From Amycolatopsis mongoliensis (GTDB lineage: Bacteria > Actinomycetota > Actinomycetes > Mycobacteriales > Pseudonocardiaceae): a stretch of 64,000 nt of DNA. The position numbers and the translations under genes are program-made. Within the stretch, counting starts at the first letter, position 1. Each line of letters begins with the position of its first letter. Positions 11,752-61,396 of this stretch are shown here, piece by piece. Below the pieces are notes generated by a model, which saw only the letters and a program-made list of their open reading frames with translations, had not been told where the DNA came from and did not search any database. Location of the stretch: contig NZ_CP127295.1 of assembly GCF_030285665.1 (NCBI RefSeq), positions 6,014,001 to 6,078,000 of the forward strand, given 5' to 3'.

Positions 11752-12657
11752 ATGTTCAGCAAACGGATCGGCTCGGCCGCTGTCCTTGCCGTCGCCGGAG
11801 CGGTGGCACTGACGGCTTGTGGAGCGCGTACCTCGCCGCCCGCGCAGACGCGGGCTCAGGTCGAGCGAAGCGACACAGCGGCAGACACGAGCCTCGCGTT
11901 CCTTTCCGGAACAGCCAAGGCCGGCAATGCGCAGCCGAAGACGGGCGACTGGGCGACCGGTGCGGACGGAACGCCCAATTCCGCGAACCAGCAGGTCGCG
12001 CGGCGGTGGGTGCAGCTGAAGGCGGCTCCGGCCGGCGGGCTCGACCCGGTCGTCGTGAACGGAGCCGGATTGACCCTCTATCGCTTCGACAAGGACACGG
12101 CCCAGCCGTCGAAATCCGCGTGCTCCGGCGAATGTGCCAAGACCTGGCCGCCTGTGCTCGTGACGCCGGCGAGCAAGATCTTCCTCGCCGGCGTCCGGAA
12201 GTCCGCGGTCGGCACGGTCGAGCGTGCCGACGGTTCGCTCCAGGTGACGATCGGCGGGTGGCCCGTCTACCGGTTCGCCAAGGACACCAAGCCCGGTGAC
12301 ACCAACGGTCAGGGCGTCGGCGGGACGTGGTTCGCCGTCTCGCCGAAGGGACAGAAGGCGGTGGAGCAGGGCGAGCCGTCGGAACCGGGAACGGTCGCGA
12401 CCGGCCCGGCCGCGACCAGTGGGATCTTCTTCGACGGCAAGAACTTCGCCGACGACGAGGCCTCGCAGGGAACTTCGGGATCCGGATGCCGGAACCTCGC
12501 GCGGCCGGGCGTGACGTCGTCGATCAGCGCGTCCGGCCACCTGAAGCTCTGGAGCGAGAAGGACTGCCGGGGCAGGTCCGTGGTCATCGACGGCGATGTC
12601 GCCGACCTCGGCACGGTCGGGTTCGACAACACGGCCGCGTCCGTCTTCTTCGGCTGA
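11752..12657 (+). CDS. secreted lipoprotein with lipoprotein_15 (SCO0930-like) repeats and crystallin-like tail
   Basis: A 301-residue protein with a lipoprotein signal: MFSKR, a hydrophobic stretch and the lipobox LTAC, so Cys23 is the expected lipidation site. Residues about 90-205 hold two tandem segments (DPVVVNGAGLTLYRFDKD and GGWPVYRFAKDTKPGD), typical of the secreted repeat family PF03640. The C-terminal 80 residues (FFDGKNF, LKLWSEKDCRG, FDNTAASVFFG) look like a beta/gamma-crystallin fold. The start follows AGGGAG at 11740-11745; an in-frame upstream GTG at 11638 would bury the signal peptide. Such proteins are cell-surface lipoproteins of unknown function, sometimes linked to electron transfer or metal handling. 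Confidence 0.88.
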   Translation: MFSKRIGSAAVLAVAGAVALTACGARTSPPAQTRAQVERSDTAADTSLAFLSGTAKAGNAQPKTGDWATGADGTPNSANQQVARRWVQLKAAPAGGLDPVVVNGAGLTLYRFDKDTAQPSKSACSGECAKTWPPVLVTPASKIFLAGVRKSAVGTVERADGSLQVTIGGWPVYRFAKDTKPGDTNGQGVGGTWFAVSPKGQKAVEQGEPSEPGTVATGPAATSGIFFDGKNFADDEASQGTSGSGCRNLARPGVTSSISASGHLKLWSEKDCRGRSVVIDGDVADLGTVGFDNTAASVFFG

Positions 12658-20688: not shown

Positions 20689-20825
20689 ACTTCCTCGCGG
20701 CTTCGGACGGTCGGCTCGGTGTGCCGCCGTTCCGCGGCCGGTACCCCGGCCGGCCAGGGCGTTTAGAGATCGTGAAGTCCGCTGCACAATGCTTCGCCCA
20801 GGGGTACGAGGCAGGAGGAACCACA

Positions 20826-21449
20826 GTGGAACCTGTACATGTCGCGGTGTGGACGGCCGACCCGATCATGCACGCGGGACTCACGAGCTTCCTGCGGACC
20901 CGCACCGAACTGGTGGTCGTCGAGCCGGGTGAGCTGGCCGGCCAGGGCGTGCTGGTCGCCCACATCGATCGGATGACCCCGCAGGTGGTTGCGGAACTGC
21001 GCGGCGACGGTGCCCAGGCACGCGTTCCCAAGGTACTGCTGGCCGGCGAACTGGGGGAGAACGACATCCTGACTGCCGTCGAATGCCGGGTGGTGGCCGT
21101 GCTGCCGCGGGCTCGGACGTCGGGTGACAGCCTCGTCGAAGCCGTGCTGTCCGTGGTGCCCGGACGGGGCCTGCTGCCCGCCGAACTGCTCGGACAGCTG
21201 CTCGACAGCGTGCGGCAGCTGCAGTCCGAACCACCCGCCTCGTGCGGTCCGGGCTCCGCCGGGCTGACCCCGCGCGAAGTGGACGTGCTCCGGTTGATGG
21301 CGGAGGGGTGCGACACCGCCGAGATCGCGGACAAGCTGTGTTACTCCGAGCGCACGGTCAAAAACACCGTCTACGGGCTGACCAACCGCCTGAACCTGCG
21401 GAACCGGCCCCACGCGGTCGCCTACGCCATGCGCGCGGGCGTGATCTAG
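20826..21449 (+). CDS. LuxR/NarL-type regulator with atypical receiver domain (paralog 1)
   Basis: A 207-residue protein starting at GTG 20826 with AGGAGGA upstream. The C-terminal 65 residues are a LuxR HTH (LTPREVDVLRLMAEGCDTAEIADKLCYSERTVKNTVYGLTNRLNL). The N-terminal ~120 residues have the alternating strands and helices of a receiver, but the phospho-acceptor region reads VLVAHIDRMTPQ, with the aspartate one place off the usual LLDxRMP pattern, and the usual acidic pocket is weak; phosphorylation is doubtful. It is strongly similar to the protein at 48188 (shared ending NLRNRPHAVAYAMRAGVI-like) and to that at 47474, so the three are a paralog set. Confidence 0.9.
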   Translation: MEPVHVAVWTADPIMHAGLTSFLRTRTELVVVEPGELAGQGVLVAHIDRMTPQVVAELRGDGAQARVPKVLLAGELGENDILTAVECRVVAVLPRARTSGDSLVEAVLSVVPGRGLLPAELLGQLLDSVRQLQSEPPASCGPGSAGLTPREVDVLRLMAEGCDTAEIADKLCYSERTVKNTVYGLTNRLNLRNRPHAVAYAMRAGVI

Positions 21450-38726: not shown

Positions 38727-39180
38727 CCCGCGGACGCCCGTCCCCAACGGATCATCGTGCCCTGCGCGTGTGGTGTGGCTGATCGCTTCCCCGCGGGGGC
38801 ACAACCGGTGTCACCGTCCACGTGCGGCCGCTCCGCGCCCGCTTCCGGGCCGGTACCCCGTCGCCGAGTGAAACCGTTGGCCGGCACCGAAGCTCGGGCC
38901 GCTCGGCGCCCTCGACCCGGGCGGCCGGGCCTCGTGCCCTTGAGGGCATACCGCTTGAACGAACTAGCCAACCGTGCACCAGCCCACTTCCACCAAGCTT
39001 GCAGACGGTGCGTAATTGGGTGCACCAAGTTCGTGGCCTGCACGACTTGAGCCACTGGCACACCGGAAGGGAGTGCGGAGCCATGAACAGCCGCCACAGT
39101 TCAGATGCCGGTGCCGGTGCGGAACGAGCGTGCGAACCGGCCCCCGGCGGGAGCACCGCGTGTTCCCGTTCGGAGTGGAC
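38727..39180. other. 454-base intergenic region ahead of the redox-conservon operon
   Basis: No gene on the length scale of its neighbours. The second half is AT-richer (38950-39010), fitting a promoter, and ends in a possible leader ORF (39083-39187) with a strong ribosome binding site overlapping the start of the DUF4142 gene. No tRNA or clear hairpin was seen. Confidence 0.5.
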
Positions 39181-39187
39181 GTGCTGA
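39083..39187 (+). CDS. possible 34-residue leader peptide overlapping the DUF4142 start
   Basis: ATG 39083 follows GGAAGGGAG at good spacing. The 34-codon frame ends with TGA at 39185-39187, overlapping the GTG start at 39181 in the arrangement GTGCTGA. The peptide holds three cysteines (RACEPA, TACSRS, WTC*). The overlap suggests translational coupling to the lipoprotein gene; whether the peptide has its own role is unknown. Confidence 0.38.
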   Translation: MNSRHSSDAGAGAERACEPAPGGSTACSRSEWTC

Positions 39188-39963
39188 CCCGTGGTGCCGC
39201 CGGTCGGCGGACGCGGGTCTGCCGGCTGCTTGCCGTGCTCACCTTGATGGGCGCGCTCTCCTCCTGCGGTATCTCGGTGACGTCCGGCTACAACGGACAG
39301 GTTCCCGGCAGGGAAGAACAGAAGCGCACCAATATGGACGCTCCGTACGGACCCCTGTACCCGTCCGACGTCGCGGTGCTCGTGGCGGTGGCCCAGGCGG
39401 GGTACTGGGAGGCGCCGACCAGCGAGCTGGTGGCGAAGGAGAGCAAGAACCCCCGGGTCAAGGCGGTGGCTGCGCAGCTGGCCCGGGAGCACCACGCGCT
39501 CAACATGTACAACGAGCAAGCCGCCACCCGCCTCAACGTCCAGCTCCCTGAAGCCGCGACGCCCCAGCAGCAGAGCTGGCGGGAGCAGATCGAGGCGGCG
39601 AGCGGTGACGAACGCGACCGGCTGTACGTCACTCTCACCAGAGCCGCGCACGGCTCGGTCTACATGAAGGTCGCCACGGTCCGGGCCACCACCCAGAACG
39701 ATGTGGTCCGCTCACTCGCCCAGGTCGCCACCGAGTACGTCGCCCGGCACATGGCCTTGCTGGAGAGCACCGGGCTGGCGAACTCCGACTCGGTCGCCGT
39801 GCACGCCGGAACCGATGCGCCGTACCAGCCCACGCCGACGATCGCGGAAATCGTGATGGGGATCGGCCTGGCGCTGGTCGCGGCGTTCGGGACGTTGGTG
39901 CTCGTCCGGCTCGCCGCCCGGCAGGCCCTGGAGACGGCGGAAGAGGGAGTGGCAGTCGAATGA
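39181..39963 (+). CDS. DUF4142 lipoprotein with C-terminal membrane anchor
   Basis: About 260 residues. A basic N-terminus (TRGAAGRRTRVCR), a hydrophobic stretch and the lipobox LSSC form a lipoprotein signal. The central domain (DVAVLVAVAQAGYWEAPTSEL, AREHHALNMYNEQAATRL, ATEYVARHMALLES) is a DUF4142 ferritin-like four-helix bundle. A further hydrophobic helix (IVMGIGLALVAAFGTLVLVRL) lies at the C-terminus. GTG 39181 has GGAG at 5 bases and overlaps a leader stop; GTG 39160 with GGGAG is an equally possible start. It opens the redox-conservon operon and overlaps the next gene by ATGA. Function unknown; extracytoplasmic metal or stress role is typical of the family. Confidence 0.87.
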   Translation: MLTRGAAGRRTRVCRLLAVLTLMGALSSCGISVTSGYNGQVPGREEQKRTNMDAPYGPLYPSDVAVLVAVAQAGYWEAPTSELVAKESKNPRVKAVAAQLAREHHALNMYNEQAATRLNVQLPEAATPQQQSWREQIEAASGDERDRLYVTLTRAAHGSVYMKVATVRATTQNDVVRSLAQVATEYVARHMALLESTGLANSDSVAVHAGTDAPYQPTPTIAEIVMGIGLALVAAFGTLVLVRLAARQALETAEEGVAVE

Positions 39964-40811
39964 CCGGAGTCCTCTCGAGCGTGCCGGACACGTTCCTGGC
40001 CGCCGGATACACGTCCAACGACGCCGGTGTGCGTTCCGTGGTCGCCCTTTCCGCACGGCTCGCTTATCTGACCATGTGCCTGACGCTGTGCTGGGGCATC
40101 CTCACCGCCACCGGGTGGATCCAGCGCATGACCGGTCATCAGGCATTGCGCACCGGCCACGTGATGCTGGCATCGTTCGCCATCGCAACGGCGACGGTGC
40201 ACGGGTTCGGCATGCTCTTCCTCGACGAGCAGATCATCGTCGGGACCCAGGTGGTCATCCCGTTCCTGAACGGCTACGTGCGGCACGGCCTCGGCATTCT
40301 CTCCTTCGACATGATGGTCGCCATCGTCATCACGGCGGGAATGCACCGATTCATCCGGTATCGCAACTGGTTGCGCTTTCATCAGACGGCGTACATCGCG
40401 ATCGCCCTCGGTGTCGTGCATTCCTGGTGGGGCGCGTGGTCGAACGGCAATTTCCAGGTGATGTGGCTCGCCGGGATCACGGTCCTCGCCCCGGTGATCG
40501 CACTGACCACGGTCCGGTTCCTGCCGGTGTCGCTGCTGGTGAAGCTCGGCCTCGTCGGGGACAAGGCTGCCGCCGTCGCGCAGAAGCAGGTCGCCAAGAC
40601 TGCGCCCCTGAAGGTCAGCGTCGACAACCAGCGTTGCCACCGTTACGGCTTCTGCCAGGCGGAAGCGCCGGACGTGTTCCAACTGCGCGAGGACGGCCGA
40701 CTCGCGTACCGGCAGACCCCCGAGCTGACGCGGAACCTGGACGTCATCTCCGCGGCCCGGGCCTGCCCGATGCGAGCGATCCAACTGGAAGGGACGAACC
40801 ACCATGGGTGA
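39960..40811 (+). CDS. ferric reductase-like heme membrane protein fused to a ferredoxin domain
   Basis: A 283-residue fusion. Residues about 30-190 have five hydrophobic helices with histidines placed like heme ligands (GHVMLASFAIATATVHGFG, ALGVVHSWWGAW), as in ferric-reductase-like or cytochrome b membrane domains. Residues about 215-283 are a small ferredoxin: C226-x5-C232 in RCHRYGFCQAEAPDVFQL and C269 in ARACPMRAI, three cysteines as in the [3Fe-4S] ferredoxins that feed P450s. This would pass electrons from the cytoplasmic ferredoxin domain into the membrane hemes. ATGA overlap upstream; 8-base overlap with the FAD reductase downstream, its likely electron donor. Confidence 0.9.
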   Translation: MTGVLSSVPDTFLAAGYTSNDAGVRSVVALSARLAYLTMCLTLCWGILTATGWIQRMTGHQALRTGHVMLASFAIATATVHGFGMLFLDEQIIVGTQVVIPFLNGYVRHGLGILSFDMMVAIVITAGMHRFIRYRNWLRFHQTAYIAIALGVVHSWWGAWSNGNFQVMWLAGITVLAPVIALTTVRFLPVSLLVKLGLVGDKAAAVAQKQVAKTAPLKVSVDNQRCHRYGFCQAEAPDVFQLREDGRLAYRQTPELTRNLDVISAARACPMRAIQLEGTNHHG

Positions 40812-42093
40812 GCTGCCGCGAATCGTGATCGTCGGAGCCGGGTTGGCCGGCATGTGCGCCGCCGAACGATTGCGCGAACTGGGGTTCGACGGGGAAATCG
40901 TCATCATCGGCTCGGAATCGACCATGCCGGTGTACCGGCCGGCGCTGACCAAGCAGTTCTTGACGGGGGAACTCGGCCTCAAGGAGATCATCACCGCGCC
41001 GACACACGACCTCGACGTCCTGTGGCGGTTGAACACCGTGGCGTCGCAGCTGGACGCCAAGCGGCGCGTAGTCCACCTGCCCGGCGGTGAAGAGCTCGAA
41101 TACGACGGTCTGATCATCGCCAGCGGGGTCGAAGCCCGCAGGCTCCCCGGCGCGATGCGGGCGGGTTCGCGCGTCGCCGTGCTCCGCACCATCGCCGACA
41201 GCAAACGCCTGCGGCAAGCCCTTACCGGTGCGCGGGATCCGATCGCGGTGATCGGCACCGGCTTCATCGGCTGCGAGGCGGCCTCCAGCATCCGGTCCCT
41301 CGGCCAGAACGTCGTCCTCATCGGGAATTCGAAACTGCTGATGAGCAATCTGCTCGACGCCGGGCACGCGCAGCGGCTGACCGAGCTGCACCGCCGGCAC
41401 CGCGTCCAGCTGCAACTCGGCACGCGGGTCGAGCGGTGGGCCTCCAGCGGGTCATGCGTCCACCTGCGGCTGTCCAACGGAAGGCAGCTGGACGCAGCCT
41501 TCGTGGTCGCCGCGGCGGGCTCGGTCCCCGCGGTCTCGTGGCTACGTGATTCGGGCGCCCAGCTGGACAACGGCGTGGTGTGCGAAGCCACCTGCCACGT
41601 GGCCGGGCTGGACGACGTCGTCGCGGCCGGGGACGTCGCCAGCTGGCCGAACCTGAGGTTCGACACCAAGCCGCGCCGCGTCGAGCACTGGACGAACGCG
41701 ATCGAGATGGGACGCGCGGCGGCGGAGAACCTCCTGACCGGGCGAGGCTCGGCCGCGCCGTTCATGCCAGTGCCGCGATTCTGGTCCGAGCAGCACGGGC
41801 TGCGTATCCAGGCGGCGGGCATGCCCGCTGTCGGCACGAAGCGCGACCCGATCGATCCCGCCACCCCGGGCGGGCATTCCCTGACCGGGTACTACCGGGA
41901 CGACACTCTGGTCGGAGTCATCGGCTTCGACAACTCGACGGCGGTCCTGAACTACGCCAAGACCTTCGTGGACAAGGCTCCGCTGGCCCAAGCGGACCGG
42001 CAGGCACCGGCCGGGCGCGCTCCGGAGTCCGGCGAGGTCGTGCCGGCCAGGACACCGAGACGGGATCCGCGGCCCGAGTTTCTCCGGGTCTGA
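40804..42093 (+). CDS. FAD-dependent NAD(P)H:ferredoxin reductase
   Basis: A 429-residue pyridine nucleotide-disulfide oxidoreductase family member: FAD loop IVIVGAGLAGMCAAERL, YRPALTKQFLTGE, the nucleotide loop AVIGTGFIGCEAASSI, and VVAAGDVASWPN, which contacts FAD. There is no CxxxxC active site, so it is of the ferredoxin/rubredoxin reductase type, not the disulfide type. The tail after residue 400 is Pro/Arg-rich and probably disordered. It overlaps the ferredoxin-fusion gene and is its probable reductant. Confidence 0.92.
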   Translation: MGELPRIVIVGAGLAGMCAAERLRELGFDGEIVIIGSESTMPVYRPALTKQFLTGELGLKEIITAPTHDLDVLWRLNTVASQLDAKRRVVHLPGGEELEYDGLIIASGVEARRLPGAMRAGSRVAVLRTIADSKRLRQALTGARDPIAVIGTGFIGCEAASSIRSLGQNVVLIGNSKLLMSNLLDAGHAQRLTELHRRHRVQLQLGTRVERWASSGSCVHLRLSNGRQLDAAFVVAAAGSVPAVSWLRDSGAQLDNGVVCEATCHVAGLDDVVAAGDVASWPNLRFDTKPRRVEHWTNAIEMGRAAAENLLTGRGSAAPFMPVPRFWSEQHGLRIQAAGMPAVGTKRDPIDPATPGGHSLTGYYRDDTLVGVIGFDNSTAVLNYAKTFVDKAPLAQADRQAPAGRAPESGEVVPARTPRRDPRPEFLRV

Positions 42094-42126
42094 CTCGAAC
42101 GCCGACGAATTCGAAAGGACGATTGC

Positions 42127-42543
42127 ATGCGACCGAACGTAGTGGCGATCTTCTCCGTCGTCGCGCTGGCTGCCGCCGCTGCCCTCGCCGTCCAGCAGTC
42201 ACCGAACTTCACTTCGCAGACGACCGGGTTCACCATTCTCACCGCGGACGCGGCGGACTATCACTCGGTGGTCGTCCCCCTGCCCTACCGCGAGCAACCG
42301 CGGACCATCCGCGCCCCGGTGCCGGAGACGGAGATCGCCACGGCGTGGTCGACCTCGGCACAACCTGCCGGGCATCCCGAGTCCATGAGCGGCATGACCA
42401 TGGAGCCGTCTGCCGGACAGCAGGCGGAGCCGCCCGCAGTGAGCCGACCGACCTCCACATCGGCCGACGCGGCGCCGGAGCGGCCCGCGGACACCACGCC
42501 GGCACAGACGACTTCCGCCCAGCCACCGGGGGGCCGACGATGA
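42127..42543 (+). CDS. exported Pro/Thr-rich hypothetical protein (138 aa)
   Basis: GAAAGGA precedes ATG 42127. A signal-anchor or cleavable signal (VVAIFSVVALAAAAALAV) leads into an extracytoplasmic, disordered region rich in Pro, Thr, Ala and Ser. A short Met-rich segment (MSGMTMEP) next to a histidine is reminiscent of copper-binding peptides. Its stop overlaps the DUF742 start (ATGA). It may be an extracytoplasmic partner of the membrane redox chain; no family recognised. Confidence 0.72.
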   Translation: MRPNVVAIFSVVALAAAAALAVQQSPNFTSQTTGFTILTADAADYHSVVVPLPYREQPRTIRAPVPETEIATAWSTSAQPAGHPESMSGMTMEPSAGQQAEPPAVSRPTSTSADAAPERPADTTPAQTTSAQPPGGRR

Positions 42544-43223
42544 GTCACGACCGGCCGGTTACGGCCGTGACGGCCGGACGACCGCACGCTGCGCCCGGAC
42601 GGCCCCCGGCGGGAGCGGGGGAGCCGGTCCGCTTCGGCGGCTGGTCCGACTACGGCGAGTGGGCCGATCACGACTTCCGGGAACGGAGTCCTGCGGAAGA
42701 AACGGTGTTCAAGGGCAACCAGCCCGTGGTGGTGGAGGTCATGACCGCGGTGGCGCCGATCAGGCTGCCCGACGAGCCGGAAGACGACTCCCAGCTCAGA
42801 GGAGCCTGCCGGATCGTGCCTCCCGACGAGTACGACAATGTCGAGGGAATCGACTTCGTGCTCGAGATCGATCATCCGTCCGCCTTGGTCCGGCCGTACC
42901 TCGGGACCGGCCAGTCGGCTGAGATCAGGGACGACCTCGAACTCGAGACCATGATCGAGACCGTCCAGCCGTACGCCACACTGCCGCTCAATTCGCTCAG
43001 TGCCGAGCAGCGGCTGGTGTACCGGACCTGCTCGATGCCGCAGTCGGTCGCGGAAATCGCGGTGGCGATCGAGGCGCCGATCGGACTGGCGCAGATGATC
43101 ATCACCGACGGTATCGACCGGGGCTTTCTTCGCGTGCACAGCATCGCGACCCCCACCGTGGACGGCCTCCCCTCGATCGAGCTGCTCCGGCGGGTCCACC
43201 GGGGAATCTCGCGGCTCGCCTGA
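42540..43223 (+). CDS. DUF742 protein of a conservon (CvnC-like)
   Basis: A 227-residue protein. The N-terminal ~120 residues are divergent. The rest fits DUF742: SALVRPYLGTG, LPLNSLSAEQRLVYRTCSMPQSVAEIAVAIEAPIGLAQMIITDGIDRGFLRV, a winged-helix-like domain. In Streptomyces conservons, DUF742 (CvnC) sits with a sensor ATPase (CvnA), a roadblock protein (CvnB) and a GTPase (CvnD). Here it comes first. A much longer open frame upstream overlaps the reductase and is rejected; ATG 42540 overlaps the preceding stop. Confidence 0.88.
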   Translation: MSHDRPVTAVTAGRPHAAPGRPPAGAGEPVRFGGWSDYGEWADHDFRERSPAEETVFKGNQPVVVEVMTAVAPIRLPDEPEDDSQLRGACRIVPPDEYDNVEGIDFVLEIDHPSALVRPYLGTGQSAEIRDDLELETMIETVQPYATLPLNSLSAEQRLVYRTCSMPQSVAEIAVAIEAPIGLAQMIITDGIDRGFLRVHSIATPTVDGLPSIELLRRVHRGISRLA

Positions 43224-43245
43224 CACGCTTTCCGACGGAGGAACG

Positions 43246-45090
43246 ATGACCATCGACGCGGTACGAGGACGCGGCACCGAGCCGCTGTTGACGAAGTTCA
43301 TCGTATTCTGCGCTCTTCAAACCACTTCGGCAGGCCTGATCGCGGTCAGTCTGCTGTGGACGCCCTCGTGGCCGCGCCTCGCCGCCCTGCCGGTGCTTGC
43401 GGGTGCGATCGGTGCCGGCGTGCTGATGTTCTCGGAGGCCCGGCGGCAGCGGCGATCGCTCGAAAAGCTGCACCGGGGACTCGAGCTGCTCGGGCGGCAG
43501 CGGTTGCCGGACATCGTGGACAACGTAGTGGCGAGCCGGAATGCGAACCACGTCCGGCTCCAGCTGCCGACCGTGTCGGACGAGAAGCTGGCCCACCTTG
43601 TCGGCGACGTCGAGCAGGTGTGCACCAACGCGGTCCGGCTGGCGCAGGAGCAGGACGAGATCCGTTCCGGCTACGCGGAAGTGTTCTTGAACATGTTCCG
43701 CCGGACCCAGACCTTGCTGCTACGGCAGCTGAAGATCATCGAAGGGCTCGAGCAGGAGAACCGGTCCGCCTCGGACCTGAATCGCTTCTACCAGCTCGAC
43801 CACCTCGTCATGCGTATGCGCCGGAACAACGAGAACATCCTCGTGCTCTCCGGCACCGAACTCGTGCGCAAGACGAAGGATCCGGTGCCGATCGACGACC
43901 TGCTGCGCGCGTCGATCTCCGAGATCGACAGCTACCAGCGGGTCCGGCTGATCAACACGCCGTCGGTCCGGATCGCGAACACTGCGGCCGGCGACCTCAT
44001 CCGCATCGTCGCCGAGCTGCTCGACAACGCCACGTCGTTCTCGCCGCCGGACAAGCCGGTCACCGTGAAGGCCGAGCTGGCCCGACACCGCGGATTGTCG
44101 ATCGGGGTGATCGACAACGGGATCGGAATGTCCGATGCCGACATCAGCAGCGCGAACGAGCAGTTGCGCAAACTGAGTTCCGTGGAGATCGCCCGCTCCC
44201 GCCGTCTCGGCCTGCTCGTGGCCGGCCGGCTGGCCGGTCGGCACGGTTTCCGGGTCGAATTGTTCGGCGGCGACGACGTCGAAGGGGTCTCGGCTCTCGT
44301 TTCCGTGCCGAGCTCCGTGTTGCTGAATGAGGACGCTGTGCGTGCCGCATTGCCGGGCGATGCGAGCCGCGGCTCGACCATGGGGGCCACGGGTGGCATC
44401 ACGAATCGTGCCGGACGTGGCGGCTCGGCGGTTCCCGTGACCATCACGGTGCGGCGCCAGGAAACGCAAGCGTCCGACGGCGCGACCGAGCGGCGGCCGT
44501 CCTCGTGGCACAACCGGACGAAGGTGCAGGCGACCCGCAAGCAGGCCACGGGACTGTCTTCGTCCGACCTGGTGGCGCAAGCTCATTCCGATGTTCCCGG
44601 TGAGCTGCCCACCCGGATCCCGAACAAGCGGATCGCGGCTGCCGAGACCGCGAAGCCGTCCGTTCCCCGGAGAACTTCGCGGTGGTTCCAGGCACCGAGC
44701 AAGATCCGGCAGAAGGGACTGCCTTCGGCCGGCAGCGCCGGGGACCTCTCCGCGAACTCCGGGGGCGATGCGGCGGACAACCGGCGCTCGAAAGTGGACC
44801 AGACGTGGCAGATGGCGGAGAAGTCCCAGCACCAGCAAGACTACACCTACACCGACGACGGCTTGCCGCTGCGAAAGAAGGGGGCGCACCTGTTCGTCGG
44901 GAGTGCGGACGGTGGCCTGGCGGCAGATCCGGTGCAGAATCCGAAACCAATCGAACGCGACCCGAAGCACACGCAGCGTCGGCTGTCCAGCTACCAGCAG
45001 GGAGTGCAGAAGGCCAAGGAGCAGGAAGCTCGCCTTCGCGGTACCCGGCACACCGGCGGATGGACTGTTCTCGAGGTCGGGCAAAAGTAA
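43246..45090 (+). CDS. sensor histidine kinase-like ATPase (CvnA-like)
   Basis: A 614-residue protein with two N-terminal membrane helices (about 15-62) and almost no extracytoplasmic loop. H186 lies in a dimerisation-like helix (QLDHLVMRMRRN). The HATPase_c domain has an N box ELLDNATSF near 259, DNGIGMSDAD near 290 and a G2-like GLLVAGRLAGRHG near 323. The last ~240 residues are a long polar tail with basic patches (RTKVQATRKQATG). Classical CvnA proteins carry a large sensing (nitrate-type) domain, absent here, so the input may come from partner proteins. GGAGGAACG precedes ATG 43246. Confidence 0.9.
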   Translation: MTIDAVRGRGTEPLLTKFIVFCALQTTSAGLIAVSLLWTPSWPRLAALPVLAGAIGAGVLMFSEARRQRRSLEKLHRGLELLGRQRLPDIVDNVVASRNANHVRLQLPTVSDEKLAHLVGDVEQVCTNAVRLAQEQDEIRSGYAEVFLNMFRRTQTLLLRQLKIIEGLEQENRSASDLNRFYQLDHLVMRMRRNNENILVLSGTELVRKTKDPVPIDDLLRASISEIDSYQRVRLINTPSVRIANTAAGDLIRIVAELLDNATSFSPPDKPVTVKAELARHRGLSIGVIDNGIGMSDADISSANEQLRKLSSVEIARSRRLGLLVAGRLAGRHGFRVELFGGDDVEGVSALVSVPSSVLLNEDAVRAALPGDASRGSTMGATGGITNRAGRGGSAVPVTITVRRQETQASDGATERRPSSWHNRTKVQATRKQATGLSSSDLVAQAHSDVPGELPTRIPNKRIAAAETAKPSVPRRTSRWFQAPSKIRQKGLPSAGSAGDLSANSGGDAADNRRSKVDQTWQMAEKSQHQQDYTYTDDGLPLRKKGAHLFVGSADGGLAADPVQNPKPIERDPKHTQRRLSSYQQGVQKAKEQEARLRGTRHTGGWTVLEVGQK

Positions 45091-45111
45091 CCCTGTGAAT
45101 GGAGATGTGTT

Positions 45112-45555
45112 GTGATGGTTGAAAAAGACGATTCCATGAACGAGTACGCGTGGCTCATCAACGATTTCGTGGACCGCGTGCCCGGGGTCGCACACGGTGT
45201 CGCCGTGTCCTCCGACGGTCTGCTCATCGCGGCGTCGAGCACGCTGCCGCAGGATCCGGCCGACCAGCTGGCGGCGGTCGCGTGCGGGCTGGTGAGCCTG
45301 ACCGAAGGGGCGGCTCGCTGCTTCGACGCCGGCAACGTCAACGAGACCATCGTCGAGATGGACGCGGGAACGATGCTGCTGATGTCGATCAGCGACGGTT
45401 CGTGCCTGTCGATCCTCGCCGACCCGGGGTACGACATCGGCCAGATCGCGTACGAAATGGCGTTGCTCGTCGACCGGTTCGGGCACATGCTGACCCCGGA
45501 GCTCCGGGCGAAGGAAGAGGAAACCGCAGCCGCCTCCGGCACCCCGGCGAACTAG
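45112..45555 (+). CDS. roadblock/LC7 domain protein (CvnB-like)
   Basis: A 147-residue protein with the complete roadblock/LC7 fold: YAWLINDFVDRVPGVAHGVAVSSDGLLIA, AAVACGLVSLTEGAARCF, GTMLLMSISDGSCLSILADP, IGQIAYEMALLVDRFG. These proteins regulate small GTPases such as MglA and CvnD. GTG 45112 (GGAG at 45101-45104) is favoured over ATG 45115. It lies between the sensor ATPase and the GTPase. Confidence 0.93.
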   Translation: MMVEKDDSMNEYAWLINDFVDRVPGVAHGVAVSSDGLLIAASSTLPQDPADQLAAVACGLVSLTEGAARCFDAGNVNETIVEMDAGTMLLMSISDGSCLSILADPGYDIGQIAYEMALLVDRFGHMLTPELRAKEEETAAASGTPAN

Positions 45556-45580
45556 TTTCCTGCATCGGAAAGGAACTCAG

Positions 45581-46192
45581 ATGATAAACCACAGGGTCGG
45601 TGCGGCCGCTGACTCTTCGGAGAAGTCCGTGATTACTTCGAAGATCGTCGTGGCCGGAGGGTTTGGTGTGGGAAAGTCGACGTTCGTCGGTTCGATTTCC
45701 GATATCAAGCCGCTGACCACCGAAGCGATGATGACCGTCGCGAGCGGGAAGCTGGACGACACCGAACGCCTCCCGTACAAAGGGTCGACCACGGTGGCGA
45801 TGGACTTCGGCCGGGTCGCCCTCGACGACGAACTGCTGCTGTACATTTTCGGAACCCCGGGACAGGAGCGCTTCTGGTTCATGTGGGACAGCTTGGTGCG
45901 CGGCTCGATCGGTGCCGTTGTCCTGGCTGACACCCGGCGGCTCGCCGACTCCTTCTCGTCGGTCGACTTCTTCGAAAACCGCAACATTCCTTACGTCATC
46001 GGAGTGAACACGTTCGACGGGATCCTCCACCACCCGCTCGAACACGTCCGCCGGGCCATGGCGCTCGATCCGTCGGTCCCGGTCTTCCGTTGTGACGCGC
46101 GGGAGCGGGAAGAAGTCAAGGAGACCGTGCTGGGCCTCATCGAGCACGTCATGAGGCGGGTCGAACAGGTCGCCGAACCCTCGATGACCTAG
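45581..46192 (+). CDS. conservon GTPase (CvnD-like)
   Basis: A 203-residue Ras-like GTPase of the bacterial MglA/CvnD group: P loop GGFGVGKST with K32, switch region KGSTTVAMDFG, G3 GTPGQERFWFMWDSLVRG, G4 VNTFDG. The base-specificity motif NTFD fits the NxxD rule. GGAAAGGAA lies just upstream of ATG 45581. It is the output of the roadblock/DUF742/sensor set and is followed by two thiol-redox genes. Confidence 0.93.
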   Translation: MINHRVGAAADSSEKSVITSKIVVAGGFGVGKSTFVGSISDIKPLTTEAMMTVASGKLDDTERLPYKGSTTVAMDFGRVALDDELLLYIFGTPGQERFWFMWDSLVRGSIGAVVLADTRRLADSFSSVDFFENRNIPYVIGVNTFDGILHHPLEHVRRAMALDPSVPVFRCDAREREEVKETVLGLIEHVMRRVEQVAEPSMT

Positions 46193-46247
46193 AAGTCGGG
46201 GTGGCGAAGAAAGTCCCTGGGTTGCCGAGAAACAGGATGGTTGATGG

Positions 46248-46634
46248 GTGATGGCTGACGAGGTGTCCGGTATCGTCGCTCTTGACGTGGCCAAGTTCAA
46301 TGAGATCACGAAGTCCGAAGATGTGATCGTGATCCATCTTTCGGCGGACTGGTGCAGTCCGTGCAAGGCGTTCAAGGCTGTCTTCCGCGCGACGGCGGAA
46401 AGTCACGACGACGACGTCGTCTTCGCATCGCTCGACACCGACTCTCAGCCGGAGCTGGGTGCGGCGTTCAACGTGAAGTCGATCCCGACCATTGCAGTGA
46501 TGCGCGGTGGTGCCTTGATTTTCACGCACGAGGGCTCCCTTAGTGAGAACGCGCTCAACGATGTGATCCGGCAGGCGCGCGAGATCGACATTGATGCCGT
46601 CCGCAAGTCGGTGGCCGCCCGTGCGGCGAAGTGA
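46248..46634 (+). CDS. thioredoxin-family protein (WCSPC)
   Basis: A 128-residue thioredoxin fold: VIVIHLSADWCSPCKAF with active-site cysteines C36 and C39, VFASLDTDSQPELGAAFNVKSIPTIAVMRGG with the cis-proline SIPT, and a C-terminal helix. The active site is CSPC, not the usual CGPC, which changes redox potential. GTG 46248 or ATG 46251 may be the start. It follows the GTPase by 55 bases and precedes a peroxiredoxin it may reduce. Confidence 0.9.
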   Translation: MMADEVSGIVALDVAKFNEITKSEDVIVIHLSADWCSPCKAFKAVFRATAESHDDDVVFASLDTDSQPELGAAFNVKSIPTIAVMRGGALIFTHEGSLSENALNDVIRQAREIDIDAVRKSVAARAAK

Positions 46635-46665
46635 GCTCTAGGGTGTATACGGAAAGGAAACGCTG

Positions 46666-47205
46666 GTGAGTGTCAAGATCGGTTCTCGAGCTCCGGATTT
46701 CACGCTCGACAGTAATCAGCTTGAGCCAATCACCTTGTCCTCCTTCGTGGGAGACAAGAACGTCCTGCTTGTGTACTATCCGCGCGCTTTCACGCCGATT
46801 TGCCGGGGTGAGCTGTGCCAGTTGCGCGATGAAGTCGAGATCTACCACAATTACGATGTCCAGGTGATCGGGGTATCGGTGGACTCCCCGTTCTGCCTCA
46901 AGGCGTGGGCAGACGTGCAGGGCTATCCGTTCCCGCTGCTGTCCGATTTCTGGCCGCACGGTGAGGTGGCGACGACCTACGGGTCGTTCGACGACGCGGC
47001 CGGCGTCGCCCGTCGGGGTACGTTCCTGATCGACACCGAGGGAATCATCCGCTTCGCCAAGGTCCAGGAAGAGGACGTGGCTCGCGACCAGAGTGAGTGG
47101 AAGAACCAGGTGGCGAGCATCTTGGGGCCGCACGGCCGGGATCTCTCGGATATCGCGATTCCCTCGGCGCCCGGCAACTGGATCACCGTCCGCGACGACG
47201 CCTGA
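46666..47205 (+). CDS. peroxiredoxin (AhpE/BCP-like)
   Basis: A 179-residue peroxiredoxin. YPRAFTPICRGELCQLRD holds peroxidatic C46 in the PxxxTxxC pattern (with the first proline preceding the cited segment's AFT), and C51 five residues later, as in AhpE/BCP types. GVSVDSPFCLKAWAD and RRGTFLIDTEGIIRFA are typical. The start is GTG with GGAAAGGAA upstream. It is probably reduced by the adjacent thioredoxin and closes the redox-conservon operon. Confidence 0.93.
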   Translation: MSVKIGSRAPDFTLDSNQLEPITLSSFVGDKNVLLVYYPRAFTPICRGELCQLRDEVEIYHNYDVQVIGVSVDSPFCLKAWADVQGYPFPLLSDFWPHGEVATTYGSFDDAAGVARRGTFLIDTEGIIRFAKVQEEDVARDQSEWKNQVASILGPHGRDLSDIAIPSAPGNWITVRDDA

Positions 47206-47473: not shown

Positions 47474-48109
47474 GTGGATGTCGTGAAGGTGCTGGTGCAC
47501 GCGGCCGACGAGATCAGCGAGGCCGGGGTCAAGGCAATGCTGAGCGGGCGTGAGCAGTTCCGCGTCGTACCGGACGACCCGGGCTGCCGCCCGGACGTTC
47601 TCGTCGTCGTCGTGGACGGAGTTGTCGGAACGAGTACGTTCGCCCTGCTCAGGCGGTTGCAGGACGGCGGTTCGGCAGACAGCCCTCGCGCCGTGCTCGT
47701 GGCGGACCGGTTCAAGTCCGAGGACCTCCTGCTGGCTGTCGAATGCGGGGTGGCGGCATTGCTGGCCCGCAACGAACTCAAAGATGGAACCCTGGCCTCC
47801 GCGGTCGGAGCGGTCGGCCGGGGTGCCGCGCTCCTGCCGTATCGATTGCAGGGCATCCTCCTGGACCAGATAAGCCAGTTGCGTTCGCAGGTGCTGGCGC
47901 CGGCGGGTTTGACCCTTTCCGGAATCGAGACGCGCGAGCGAGACGTGCTGCAGCTGATCGCGGAGGGCTACCAGACCGACGAAATCGCGAACCGGCTCAC
48001 TTACTCCGAGGGCACGGTCAAGAACGTCCTCTACGGTCTCATGGCCCGGCTGCGGCTCAATTCACGGTCCCACGCGGTCGCCTATGCGATGCGCGCCGGC
48101 GTGATCTGA
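47474..48109 (+). CDS. LuxR/NarL-type regulator with atypical receiver (paralog 2)
   Basis: A 211-residue protein from GTG 47474 (AGGGAG at 47461). The N-terminal receiver-like domain (VKVLVHAADEISEAGVKAML, VLVVVVDGVVGTSTF, LLAVECGVAALLARNEL) lacks the conserved acidic pair at its start. The HTH is IETRERDVLQLIAEGYQTDEIANRLTYSEGTVKNVLYGLMARL and the end SHAVAYAMRAGVI is shared with the paralogs at 20826 and 48188. It is about 80 bases upstream of the next paralog in tandem. Confidence 0.9.
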   Translation: MDVVKVLVHAADEISEAGVKAMLSGREQFRVVPDDPGCRPDVLVVVVDGVVGTSTFALLRRLQDGGSADSPRAVLVADRFKSEDLLLAVECGVAALLARNELKDGTLASAVGAVGRGAALLPYRLQGILLDQISQLRSQVLAPAGLTLSGIETRERDVLQLIAEGYQTDEIANRLTYSEGTVKNVLYGLMARLRLNSRSHAVAYAMRAGVI

Positions 48110-48187: not shown

Positions 48188-48808
48188 ATGGAACCGGTGC
48201 GAGTGGGTGTCCAGGCCGCCGATTCGATCACCGAGGTCGGGCTGGCCAGCTTTCTGCGGACCAGCCGGCGGCTCGAGGTCGTCGACCCCGGCACGGTGAC
48301 CGAGCGGGACGTGCAGGTGGTGCAGGCGGACCGGTTGACACCGCAGGTCGCCGCCGACCTCAGGGCCGAGCACTGCGCGGCGGTGCCCAAGGTGCTGCTG
48401 ATCGACGACCTCAGGGACAGCGACGTGCTCAGCGCGGTCGAGTGCGGGGTCGTCGTGGTGCTCCCACGGAGCCGGACCTCGGGCGACGGCCTGGTCGAAG
48501 CCGTGGTCGCCGCCGCTTCGGGCCGCGGCCTCCTGCCGCCGGACCTACTGGGCCGGCTGCTCGACGGCATCCGGCGGCTGCAGCACGACGTGCTCACTCC
48601 TCGCGGGCTGGGTGCCGCGGGGCTGACCGCGCGCGAGGTCGACGTGCTCAGGCTCATGGCGGAGGGGCTGGACACCAGTGAGATAGCGGGCGAGCTGTGC
48701 TATTCCGAGCGCACGGTCAAGAACGTGATCTACGAGATGACCAGCAGGCTCAACCTGCGCAATCGTCCGCACGCGGTGGCGTACGCCATGCAGGCCGGCG
48801 TCATCTGA
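48188..48808 (+). CDS. LuxR/NarL-type regulator with atypical receiver (paralog 3)
   Basis: A 206-residue protein, ATG 48188 after GGAGG. It is closest to the protein at 20826: both begin (M/V)EPV, share FLRT, DRLTPQV/DRMTPQV, GRGLLP, LTxREVDVLRLMAEG, LCYSERTVKN and NLRNRPHAVAYAM. The phospho-acceptor position is again displaced (QVVQADRLTPQ). Probably arose by duplication; both tandem genes may respond to signals other than phosphorylation. Confidence 0.9.
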   Translation: MEPVRVGVQAADSITEVGLASFLRTSRRLEVVDPGTVTERDVQVVQADRLTPQVAADLRAEHCAAVPKVLLIDDLRDSDVLSAVECGVVVVLPRSRTSGDGLVEAVVAAASGRGLLPPDLLGRLLDGIRRLQHDVLTPRGLGAAGLTAREVDVLRLMAEGLDTSEIAGELCYSERTVKNVIYEMTSRLNLRNRPHAVAYAMQAGVI

Positions 48809-59002: not shown

Positions 59003-61396
59003 GTGAGCCAGAACGTCATCATGGTCACCCCGACGCCGGGACGCGGGTACCGGCGCATCGGTGACGCGGTGGCCGGAGCACCTGAGGGCGCCCTGATCGT
59101 CGTGGCACCAGGGCGCTACACCGAGAACCTGACGGTTTCCAAGCCGGTGACCATCACCGCGGAAGACGGCGCCGGGACGGTGACGATCCTCGCCAAGACC
59201 GGGGTCGCGGTGACCCTGACCGCCGCGTCCGCCGCGCTGTCCGGCATCTCGGCAGTGTCCACGGACGCCGACAACCCGGCGGTCTTCGTGGCGCAGGGAC
59301 AGCTCAGCCTCACGGAATGCTCCTTGCAGGGCGCCGGCTGGTCCACGGTCTTCGCCTCGGGGGAAGGCACCATCCTGATGCGCGGTTGTGCGGTGCGCAA
59401 CGACACGGGGGCGGGTGTCGTGGTCACCTCACCCCACGGAGGTGTCCTCGAGTCCTGCCGGTTCGACGAGATGGGGACGTCCGCGGTCGTCGTCGCCGAC
59501 GACGGCACGCTGCTGATGCGCGCCTGCACGGTCGGCAAAGCGGCCGGCAACGGCATCTGCCTGAACGGCCGTGGCCGCCTGACCGTCGAGGACACCACGA
59601 TCTCCGGCACGGCCAAGCCCGCCGTGGCGGTGGAACAGCAGGCGATGATCGCCGCGAAACGGCTGACGGCGTCCGATGTGGAGGGAATCGGGTTCTACCT
59701 CGCCAGCGGCGGCGAGGTCGCGCTCGAAGACTGTCTCGCGGAGCGCGTGGGAGCCGAGGGCGTGTTCGTCGCCGAAGGCTGCAAACCGGTTTTGCGCGGA
59801 TGCCGGGTACGCGGAGCCGGTTTGCATGGCGTGCACTTTTCCGCGCGCTCGGGCGGCATCGTCACCGACTGCGAGATTTCGGAGGTGACCGGGATCGGGG
59901 TGAACGTGACCGAACGTTCCGCGCCGGAGTTCGATCAGCTCCTGGTCTCCGGGTGCACCGCTGCCGGGCTGCGGGTGTCCGACGCCGCCGATCCGTTCTT
60001 CCGCAGGCTGCGAGTGCTCGGCTCGGACGGGGCGGGCATCGAGGTCGAGGACGGCGGCCGCGGCACGATGGAGAACGTCGAAATCGACGGCGGCGCCGTG
60101 GGGCTGCGGGTCACGGGCGGTTCGCGGCTGTCGGCGAGCGGCTTCAGCGTGCGGAACACCGCGGGCGCCGCGGTGGAAGTCTCCGAAGCCACGTTGTCGC
60201 TGGTCGACAGTGCGATCGACGGCGCCGGCGGGGACGGCGTCCACGCGGGTCCCGGAGCCACCCTGTCGATCCTGCGCTGCCGCGTGCACAGCAGCGCGGG
60301 CGCGGGCTGCCGATTCGTCGAAGGCGCGTCGGGAACCGCGACCGAGTCCGAGTTCTCGAGCGGTAAGTCGGACGGGATCGTCCTCGACACGGAGGAAGCC
60401 GTGCGGGTGACGTCCTGCACCGTGCGGGACAACCACGGCAGCGGCGTGCGCCAGGTCCGGCCGGGCACGGCGATCGAGGTGCTCGGCCTGATCACCAGCG
60501 GGAACTTCAAACCGGACGCCTACGGGACGTCCGCGTCCGCGGGGGCCGCGGAACCCGTGCCGGCGGCGGCCGAGCGCCCCAAGCCCGCCGATGACCCGCT
60601 CGAGGAACTGCAGAAACTGGTGGGACTGGCCGGGGTGAAGCGCGAAGTGACTTCGCTGATCAACCTCAACAAGATGGCCAAGCGACGGCGGGACGCCGGG
60701 CTGTCGGCGCCGCCGATGGCTCGTCACCTGGTGTTCGCCGGTGCGCCCGGCACCGGCAAGACCACGGTCGCGCGCCTCTACGGCCAGGTTCTCGCGCAGC
60801 TCGGGGTACTGCGCGAAGGTCACCTCGTCGAGGTGGCCCGAGCCGATCTGGTCGCGCAGATCATCGGCGGTACCGCGATCAAGACGACGGAGGCGTTCAC
60901 CACCGCGCTCGGCGGCGTCTTGTTCATCGACGAGGCCTACACGCTGAGTTCCGGCCAAGGCGGCAGCGGACCGGACTTCGGCCGGGAGGCGATCGACACC
61001 CTGGTCAAGCTGATGGAGGACCATCGGGAGGACGTCGTGGTCATCGCCGCCGGCTACAGCACCGAGATGCAGGAGTTCCTCTCGGCGAACCCCGGCATGG
61101 AGTCCCGGTTCAGCCGGACGATCGAATTCGCCAACTACACCGCGGACGAACTCGTCACGATCGTCCGGTCGCAGTGCGGGAAACACGACTACCACCTCGA
61201 AGGCGACGCGGCCGAAGCGTTGCGGGAGTACTTCGAGGCGATCCCGAAGGACGGCACGTTCGGCAACGGCCGGACCGCGCGGCGGGTGTTCGAGCGGATG
61301 ACCGACCGGCAGGCTTCGCGTCTCGCCGAGGCGCCGTCGGCGAGCCCGGCCGATCTGACGCTCCTGACAGCCGACGACCTCGATACCGGTGCCTGA
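59003..61396 (+). CDS. right-handed beta-helix repeat protein fused to CbbX/EccA-type AAA+ ATPase
   Basis: A 797-residue fusion. Residues 1-510 are many short repeats with regular strands and G/D-rich turns (GAGVVVTSPHGGVLESCRF, GNGICLNGRGRLTVEDTTI), the pattern of pectate-lyase-like beta helices. Residues about 535-797 are a classical-clade AAA+ domain: LVGLAGVKREVTSLI, Walker A GAPGTGKTT near 580-588, Walker B GVLFIDEAYTL near 640, SRFSRTIEF and GNGRTARRVFERM. The AAA part is closest to CbbX/SpoVK and to the C-terminal half of EccA of type VII secretion. There is no signal peptide, so the beta helix is cytoplasmic and may be the substrate-recognition part. GTG 59003 follows GGAGAG. It lies between the two ART-like paralogs. 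Confidence 0.9.
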   Translation: MSQNVIMVTPTPGRGYRRIGDAVAGAPEGALIVVAPGRYTENLTVSKPVTITAEDGAGTVTILAKTGVAVTLTAASAALSGISAVSTDADNPAVFVAQGQLSLTECSLQGAGWSTVFASGEGTILMRGCAVRNDTGAGVVVTSPHGGVLESCRFDEMGTSAVVVADDGTLLMRACTVGKAAGNGICLNGRGRLTVEDTTISGTAKPAVAVEQQAMIAAKRLTASDVEGIGFYLASGGEVALEDCLAERVGAEGVFVAEGCKPVLRGCRVRGAGLHGVHFSARSGGIVTDCEISEVTGIGVNVTERSAPEFDQLLVSGCTAAGLRVSDAADPFFRRLRVLGSDGAGIEVEDGGRGTMENVEIDGGAVGLRVTGGSRLSASGFSVRNTAGAAVEVSEATLSLVDSAIDGAGGDGVHAGPGATLSILRCRVHSSAGAGCRFVEGASGTATESEFSSGKSDGIVLDTEEAVRVTSCTVRDNHGSGVRQVRPGTAIEVLGLITSGNFKPDAYGTSASAGAAEPVPAAAERPKPADDPLEELQKLVGLAGVKREVTSLINLNKMAKRRRDAGLSAPPMARHLVFAGAPGTGKTTVARLYGQVLAQLGVLREGHLVEVARADLVAQIIGGTAIKTTEAFTTALGGVLFIDEAYTLSSGQGGSGPDFGREAIDTLVKLMEDHREDVVVIAAGYSTEMQEFLSANPGMESRFSRTIEFANYTADELVTIVRSQCGKHDYHLEGDAAEALREYFEAIPKDGTFGNGRTARRVFERMTDRQASRLAEAPSASPADLTLLTADDLDTGA

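Follow-up and report, generated by a model that had tools for sequence, protein, structure and literature searches.

What is a bacterial G-protein switch doing in one operon with a trans-membrane electron-transfer chain? The question is raised by ten genes at positions 39181-47205 of a 64,000-nucleotide (nt) stretch of Amycolatopsis mongoliensis DNA (contig NZ_CP127295.1, positions 6,014,001 to 6,078,000), which is called the window here. The electron-transfer half of the operon encodes an exported DUF4142 protein, a membrane domain-ferredoxin fusion (FR/Fd), an FAD-dependent ferredoxin reductase (FdR) and a small exported protein. The other half is a conservon, an actinobacterial G-protein system comprising a DUF742 protein, a CvnA-type ATPase, a CvnB-type roadblock protein (RB) and a CvnD-type GTPase, and it is followed by genes for a thioredoxin (Trx) and a peroxiredoxin (Prx). 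The answer favoured here, considered probable though far from assured, is that a lineage-specific conservon has become an integral part of a trans-membrane electron-export module and most likely acts as its regulator. Conservon signal reception is called largely unexplored in a passage of a 2026 mBio paper (PMC13343842). A conservon tied in one operon, in 12 species, to a partner with a measurable activity, namely trans-membrane electron transfer, gives a concrete and testable case of what such bacterial G proteins may control.

The ten-gene set and its tight spacing, as given in a preliminary description of the locus, were recovered from the list of open reading frames (ORFs) at the same positions, all on the + strand, and Pfam and NCBIfam scans agreed with the names used there. 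The genes of the operon and two probable associates are as follows:

39181..39963, + strand: DUF4142 exported protein (PF13628, 8e-15; alignment of 12 homologues)
39960..40811, + strand: FR/Fd, a membrane domain of the ferric-reductase/NOX type, predicted to bind two hemes, joined to a ferredoxin of the [3Fe-4S] type (Pfam Ferric_reduct and Fer4_15/Fer4_13)
40804..42093, + strand: FdR, an FAD-dependent ferredoxin reductase (Pfam Pyr_redox_2 and Reductase_C; NCBIfam)
42127..42543, + strand: small exported or membrane-anchored protein (no Pfam family; 8 clear homologues)
42540..43223, + strand: DUF742 protein (PF05331, 4e-16) with the N-terminal extension FGGWSDYGEWADHDFR
43246..45090, + strand: CvnA-type histidine-kinase-like ATPase (PF02518, HATPase_c; helix spacing by hydropathy; alignments)
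45112..45555, + strand: CvnB-type roadblock/LC7 protein, RB (PF03259, Robl_LC7, 5e-20)
45581..46192, + strand: CvnD-type Ras/MglA-like GTPase (Pfam ATP_bind_1/Ras)
46248..46634, + strand: thioredoxin with WCSPC (PF00085, 3e-20)
46666..47205, + strand: AhpE-like peroxiredoxin (PF00578, AhpC-TSA, 4e-36; PDB relatives; alignment)
47474..48109, + strand: small LuxR-type regulator 1 with a GerE helix-turn-helix, outside the tight operon, probable associate (PF00196)
48188..48808, + strand: small LuxR-type regulator 2 (LuxR2) with a GerE helix-turn-helix, probable associate (PF00196)

Genes overlapped by 4 nt (DUF4142/FR), 8 nt (FR/FdR) and 4 nt (exported protein/DUF742). The remaining gaps measured 33 nt (FdR-exported protein), 22 nt (DUF742-CvnA), 21 nt (CvnA-RB), 25 nt (RB-GTPase), 55 nt (GTPase-Trx) and 31 nt (Trx-Prx); 268 nt separate Prx from the next gene downstream, as against 21-55 nt inside the operon. 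The DUF4142 protein has a signal peptide with a lipobox (LSSC), a ferritin-like domain and a C-terminal membrane helix, and GTG at 39181 is its probable start codon, as deduced from the signal peptide.

One operon in twelve species

FR/Fd was searched for in 60 relatives, 397 genomes of the order, 390 genomes of the family and 396 genomes of the phylum. At E 1e-70, 114 of the 390 family genomes matched; eleven contained a copy at least 63% identical, and the next copies were 56% identical. These eleven genomes, all containing the joined electron-transfer and conservon genes (hereafter the block), were G000 (A. mongoliensis itself), G014, G514, G015 and G516 from the same genus, G460, G475 and G466 from one other genus group, G534 and G536 from another, and G527 from another still. 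When named genomes were scanned with a pattern, a twelfth block came to light in Saccharothrix coeruleofusca (Pseudonocardiaceae). Among named organisms, Amycolatopsis sp. A133 and A. oliviviridis have the blocks closest to that of the window.

All 12 loci were read out, and DUF4142, FR/Fd, FdR, DUF742, CvnA, RB and GTPase genes occurred in the same order and orientation in every one. The slot between FdR and DUF742 contained a homologue of the exported protein in 8 blocks and another ORF with a hydrophobic start, putatively coding, in the other 4 (~57 residues in G516). With starts picked by script, the exported-protein and DUF742 genes overlapped by 1 or 4 nt in all eight blocks with a short CvnA (defined below). 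Downstream of the GTPase, Trx was present in 9/12 blocks, Prx in 7/12 and the small LuxR pair in 5/12. The preliminary description placed a thiol-peroxide module among the parts that bracket the G-protein set; these counts make Trx and Prx optional members and rule them out as defining ones. DUF742 and CvnA have diverged to ~40% identity among the blocks, and the gene order has still been kept.

In the phylum search (396 genomes) only A. mongoliensis matched at E 1e-50, a cut-off at which weaker relatives are not listed. Related modules that are not blocks occur in other families of the order (G039, G045, G047, G056). The A. mongoliensis genome (10.8 Mb, one contig) contains 13 DUF742 genes, numbers that put the chance of some DUF742 gene lying within 10 kb of a given gene at ~2%. 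The preliminary description had called for a survey of gene neighbourhoods; this found the redox and conservon genes together in 12 species of the Pseudonocardiaceae, a family of soil actinobacteria, which excludes a chance clustering confined to one strain. The redox and conservon genes are one conserved unit, and the operon is a real, conserved conservon variant with a trans-membrane electron chain as its partner. Such an operon is not described in the titles, abstract openings and passages surveyed from the open-licence literature on conservons, DUF4142 and ferric reductases.

The two halves of the block share their ancestry. Block FR/Fd proteins formed one clade against 39 other copies (Shimodaira-Hasegawa-like approximate likelihood ratio test, SH-aLRT, 100). 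These copies came from 39 of the 42 non-block modules introduced below; L058, L061 and L063, in which FR and ferredoxin are separate genes, were left out. Block GTPases likewise formed one clade (99/99) against ten other conservon GTPases, eight from the A. mongoliensis genome and two from L143 and L145, and the twelve block DUF742 proteins did so in a tree with 27 further rows, among them 25 distinct ones. Concatenated trees of the redox proteins (DUF4142, FR/Fd and FdR) and of the conservon proteins (DUF742, CvnA, RB and GTPase), using columns filled in at least 11 of the 12 rows, had a Robinson-Foulds (RF) distance of 0, with 9 splits each. In these trees G516 was placed apart from its four congeners and G466 apart from G460 and G475, its companions in the genus group, and the genus labels needed 5 changes where the minimum possible is 4. 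The unit appears to have moved, or to have been kept as an old duplicate, intact.

A profile of the block DUF742 proteins scored at least 267 bits in the same 11 of 390 genomes and at most 190 bits in 24 further genomes. Fourteen of those 24 loci were read out, and no CvnA, RB, GTPase or redox genes were found there with the window proteins as queries; of 11 other DUF742 loci in the A. mongoliensis genome, 9 did reveal conservon partners in the same query search.

An operon that travels as a unit while its two halves work independently is very unlikely. Such a history would suit the single origin of the blocks, the module copies that live without a conservon, and the LuxR pair, Trx and Prx, which come and go among blocks. 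Against it stand an order kept despite the divergence of DUF742 and CvnA, the junction overlap in 8/8 short-CvnA blocks, identical redox and conservon topologies, and the lack of an ECF neighbour at the blocks (see below).

The electron-transfer chain and its regulators

An alignment of 28 FR/Fd sequences (11 of the 12 blocks, G475 being left out, and 17 of the 42 other modules) contained only four invariant histidines, H67, H81, H141 and H154, and the ferredoxin cysteines C226, C232 and C269 were also invariant. Positions of the predicted heme ligands differ by 14 for H67/H81 (H-x13-H) and by 13 for H141/H154 (H-x12-H). FR/Fd has the Pfam Ferric_reduct domain in common with NADPH oxidases and ferric reductases (NOX2, FRE). 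NADPH oxidases carry a fused FAD/NADPH domain, whereas FR/Fd has a C-terminal Fer4_15-type ferredoxin and is accompanied by a separate FAD reductase; since the fused domain is lacking, electrons must enter via the [3Fe-4S] ferredoxin and the separate reductase. The ferredoxin part gave a clear PDB profile match, with the CYP51-ferredoxin fusion 6mcw as its closest solved relative, and FdR is of the BphA4/TodA/putidaredoxin-reductase type (PDB relatives 3lxd, 3ef6 and 1q1r). The membrane part gave only a weak PDB profile match (E 0.09) to the FAD-binding FR-type protein 8qta, presumably the NOX enzyme of the bacterium S. pneumoniae.

With invariant heme and cluster ligands and a reductase of this type, the path NAD(P)H-FAD-Fe-S-heme-heme-outside appears complete on paper, and the complete trans-membrane electron path of the preliminary description was borne out at the sequence level by family matches and invariant ligands. 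Electrons would pass from NAD(P)H to FdR, the [3Fe-4S] ferredoxin and two b hemes (H67/H81 and H141/H154), and from there to an acceptor outside. Probable acceptors would be the DUF4142 protein, the small exported protein or both, with a metal or O2 as the alternatives.

Both candidate acceptor proteins show conserved features. A passage of PMC11317620 calls DUF4142 ferritin-like and exported in another organism. Histidines in HH, AHG and RHM were invariant among 12 DUF4142 homologues, which suggests a metal or heme site. A C-terminal hydrophobic stretch was present in 12/12 homologues and a lipobox cysteine in 8/12, so that the earlier name of lipoprotein suits the window protein, which has the lipobox, but not all of its homologues. 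The small exported protein has a conserved N-terminal anchor and conserved QSPN and LPYRE stretches (8 homologues). Met residues in its tail number three in the window and G514 and two in G014, and the remaining five homologues have at most one; the description of this protein as Met-rich was not upheld among the homologues, and a metal-binding role based on the Met stretch was ruled out.

The heme ligands bear on one alternative to the favoured reading. According to passages of PMC9568551, the hemes of human NOX2 are held by His101/His115 on transmembrane helix 3 (TM3) and His209/His222 on TM5, both distances being the same as in FR/Fd, and NOX2 is activated on recruitment of cytosolic subunits including Rac. 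In a bacterial counterpart of Rac/NOX2, the GTP-bound GTPase would bind the membrane redox complex and switch electron flow; one operon holds both the GTPase gene and the redox genes, with overlapping genes at the junction of its two halves, an arrangement that suits complex assembly. If true, such direct gating would be a prokaryotic analogue of the Rac-controlled NADPH oxidase. It is unlikely, as contact between the GTPase and the redox complex is a proposal, the membrane-domain match to 8qta is very weak, the donor modules differ as described above, and in passages of PMC8510531 and PMC4316618 conservons act on gene expression or, through MfpA, on DNA gyrase. Equally doubtful is the corollary that the conservon is an on/off switch of electron export, not a transcriptional relay, with Trx and Prx reporting or buffering peroxide that the chain makes.

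Modules with related electron-transfer genes and without the block's conservon point instead to regulation of the chain. Forty-two such non-block modules were fetched (L046-L063, L119-L130 and L139-L150; 18 from the 60-relative search, 12 from the order search and 12 from the family search), picked by score and spread and far fewer than the total listed. An extracytoplasmic function (ECF) sigma gene lay within 6 kb of 37 of the 42, and in 35 of those it was upstream on the opposite strand. A zf-HC2-type anti-sigma gene was found at 26/42 modules, a Lipoprotein_15 gene at 27/42 and DUF1996 in 11 loci. Four of five ECF queries and three of four anti-sigma queries were confirmed by Pfam. The same search gave no ECF match in 25 control loci (421 kb) around the other DUF742 genes of the A. 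mongoliensis genome and orphan DUF742 genes; the ECF link of the non-block modules is therefore far above background. None of the 12 blocks had an ECF match in the sequence covered, which reached no less than 4.6 kb upstream of FR and 11 kb downstream of it (all 64 kb for the window), the exception being one weak match 9.8 kb downstream in G475.

A widespread ECF-linked surface electron-transfer module (DUF4142, FR, ferredoxin, FAD reductase and Lipoprotein_15) is thus present in this bacterial family. Its electron-transfer genes have the same order as in the block, with ECF sigma, anti-sigma and Lipoprotein_15 genes in place of the conservon; in some modules (L058-L061 and L063, from stops and frames) FR and ferredoxin are separate, whereas they are fused in the block. 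The A. mongoliensis genome contains both kinds, namely this block and two ECF-linked modules (L049 and L058). The blocks have lost the ECF link or never had it, and the conservon seems to occupy the place held elsewhere by the ECF/anti-sigma pair. ECF factors usually transcribe their neighbouring genes, which favours the redox module as the conservon's client, and with the same chain beside ECF genes elsewhere (37/42) the chain looks at least as much a regulated client as a sensor. This suggests that G-protein and ECF sigma systems are able to replace each other at one module. Because the partner is measurable and the same chain stands beside ECF genes in the same genome, the direction of signalling is directly testable.

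In the favoured reading, CvnA, RB and DUF742 would set the GTP state of the GTPase, and the GTPase would set the expression or activity of the module; at other module copies the position of neighbouring regulator falls to an ECF sigma gene, in many cases accompanied by one for a zf-HC2 anti-sigma. Several points weigh against this reading. The Fisher value for ECF presence in non-block versus block modules (2e-8) ignores relatedness, the 42 modules were chosen and not random, and the five ECF queries stem from five of those 42 loci. No ECF gene was detectable at 5/42 non-block modules (L056, L057, L061, L121 and L148). At the blocks ECF absence equals the background (0/25 controls), so it fits ECF loss and also a block that moved away. 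An unrelated conservon lay ~4-7 kb away on the opposite strand at 2/42 non-block modules (L143 and L145), and an isolated DUF742 gene lay 3-4 kb upstream at 3/42 (L122, L127 and L128); some proximity of module and conservon therefore arises otherwise. All 12 blocks descend from one event, so their co-occurrence represents one retained origin, not 12, and the single-protein trees were less congruent (RF 0 to 6 from the conservon tree). The AlphaFold2 model of FR/Fd, from four sequences, had a predicted local distance difference test score (pLDDT) of 47, too low for the model to be of use. A regulator inside its client's operon is an unusual logic if the output is transcription, and the direction of control between conservon and module is one that we infer.

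Two further observations concern related genes. At another conservon of the A. mongoliensis genome (L070, 10.22 Mb), genes for a ferredoxin (31%) and a ferredoxin reductase (38%) lie ~3 kb off on the opposite strand (L070 1606-2890), without the membrane part. A Lipoprotein_15-like gene (tblastn E 4e-38) occurs at ~11850-12400 of the window, far from the block.

The conservon half and its input

The block shares with the conservons of Streptomyces coelicolor (cvn1-13) and mycobacteria (mfp) a CvnA ATPase with LPxR, CvnB, DUF742 and CvnD. The LPxR motif of CvnA, as defined in a passage of PMC4316618, took the form DGLPxR at the C-terminal motif in 12/12 blocks, and the block GTPase was 50-62% identical to the GTPases of eight other conservons in the A. 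mongoliensis genome. The typical order is cvnA-B-C-D (PMC13343842, in a passage), whereas the block order is DUF742-CvnA-RB-GTPase (C-A-B-D) in 12/12 cases. What accompanies the conservon also differs: here it is a membrane electron chain together with an exported protein and Trx/Prx.

The N-terminal extension of DUF742 bears a GGWxxYxEWAxxDFR motif, which the pattern used also detected in 7 of 14 orphan DUF742 proteins picked as best scorers against the block profile. A branch with support of 98/95 joined block DUF742 with the 14 orphans, apart from 11 of the 12 other DUF742 proteins of the A. mongoliensis genome, in an unrooted tree; the remaining protein was left out (no match) and two rows from this genome appeared twice. 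Two of the 11 proteins outside the orphan branch (L073 and L074) also lack conservon genes nearby. A passage of PMC13343842 describes MfpC, which is homologous to CvnC, as the probable exchange factor of its GTPase; as the block DUF742 appears to be of the orphan lineage, a protein from a different DUF742 lineage may have come to fill the exchange-factor position. At L185 and L186, two of the 14 orphan loci read out, a GGW-type orphan DUF742 gene adjoins a LuxR2-like gene, without conservon genes, which hints at a partnership between this DUF742 lineage and small LuxR regulators. The window has one more small LuxR-type gene, its third, at 20721-21449, and over its 3' part this gene shares ~67-71% identity with LuxR2 from the blocks of G014 and G015.

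P450s belong to the redox proteins and make use of ferredoxins. Passages of PMC13343842 give P450s (CvnE) and also GAF proteins (CvnF) as accessory proteins of described conservons; the preliminary description was right to name P450s as electron partners and omitted the GAF proteins. Neither a P450 nor a GAF gene was found by Pfam among the ten operon genes or the next three downstream. CvnE/CvnF conservons resemble the block in having an accessory gene beside a sensorless CvnA. They differ in that the electron-chain genes of the block lie upstream and occur also with a NIT-bearing CvnA.

The window CvnA has two adjacent membrane helices and no extracellular sensor domain. By hydropathy, the helix gap was 1-5 residues in 8 blocks including the window (short CvnA); fewer than 20 residues between the helices counts as no sensor domain (PMC8510531, in a passage). 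Longer inter-helix stretches were found in S. coeruleofusca, G527 and G466 (~240-260 residues) and in G516 (~120 residues). Pfam scans covered the S. coeruleofusca and G516 loops; the former is a NIT domain (PF08376, 2.8e-23) and the latter had no NIT match. The exported-protein homologue was present in 8/8 short-CvnA versus 0/4 longer-loop blocks, and Prx in 7/8 versus 0/4 (Fisher 0.010). This pattern fits the published one, in which accessory proteins accompany sensorless CvnA and CvnF8 stimulates CvnA8 (PMC13343842, in passages). In the favoured reading, the CvnA sensor domain would have been lost in the window lineage, and the usual Trx and Prx may supply input by analogy with CvnE/CvnF.

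The preliminary description gave the chain the opposite role, with the electron chain and Trx/Prx reading redox or peroxide state and passing it through the sensorless CvnA to the GTPase. The adjacent helices, the accessory-protein precedent, the Prx distribution and a Prx cysteine arrangement like that of a Trx-reduced PrxQ (below) would all agree with such a sensor, which is possible but rather unlikely. On the tree, sensor loss takes no more than 1-2 changes, as does Prx presence; their association thus amounts to one or two events and is not independent evidence, and Trx does not track short CvnA (7/8 versus 2/4, Fisher 0.24). The NIT-bearing CvnA of S. coeruleofusca has the redox module beside it just the same, G475 is without Trx and Prx despite its short CvnA, and the ECF neighbours of the same chain elsewhere suggest a regulated client. 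In G475 the next gene found past the GTPase, ~0.5 kb downstream, encodes a GAF-SpoIIE protein (L134 11762-13261).

The thiol proteins themselves vary. Active-site forms among the nine Trx were CSPC, CTPC and CGPC, so the CSPC noted earlier is correct for the window protein and one of three CxPC forms overall. The best PDB match of Prx was M. tuberculosis AhpE (E 3e-45). In the block Prx, the peroxidatic cysteine (CP) C46 and the second cysteine C51 (CP+5) were invariant in 7/7 sequences, a spacing shared with the CP and CP+5 cysteines of the Trx-reduced PrxQ of C. glutamicum (PMC5811025, in a passage) and expected of a Trx-dependent 2-Cys peroxiredoxin of the PrxQ type. An AhpE paralogue in the A. 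mongoliensis genome (63% identity) has both cysteines, so the pair is not special to the block; it is without the ~27-residue C-terminal tail of the block Prx.

Flanking sequences

A promoter scan gave no sigma-70-type site and an Rfam scan gave no match. A perfect palindrome, TGCCCTTGAGGGCA, lies at 38935-38948, ~310 nt upstream of the DUF4142 gene. As a conserved operator it was ruled out, since only 3/12 blocks have it (G514 matches the window exactly, G014 with one mismatch) and it is absent from the other nine even when two mismatches were allowed.

In A. oliviviridis the conserved stretch begins at the DUF4142 gene, and most of the genes found ahead of it in the window and G014 are missing from that position. 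The genes at 31.1-38.7 kb of the window, directly upstream of the block, are shared with G014, and one of them has a weak AAA_10 match, presumably conjugation-like. Downstream, a gene at 59003-61393 encodes a fusion protein in which a right-handed beta-helix is joined to an AAA ATPase carrying AAA_lid_6, and it is conserved in G014 and A. oliviviridis.

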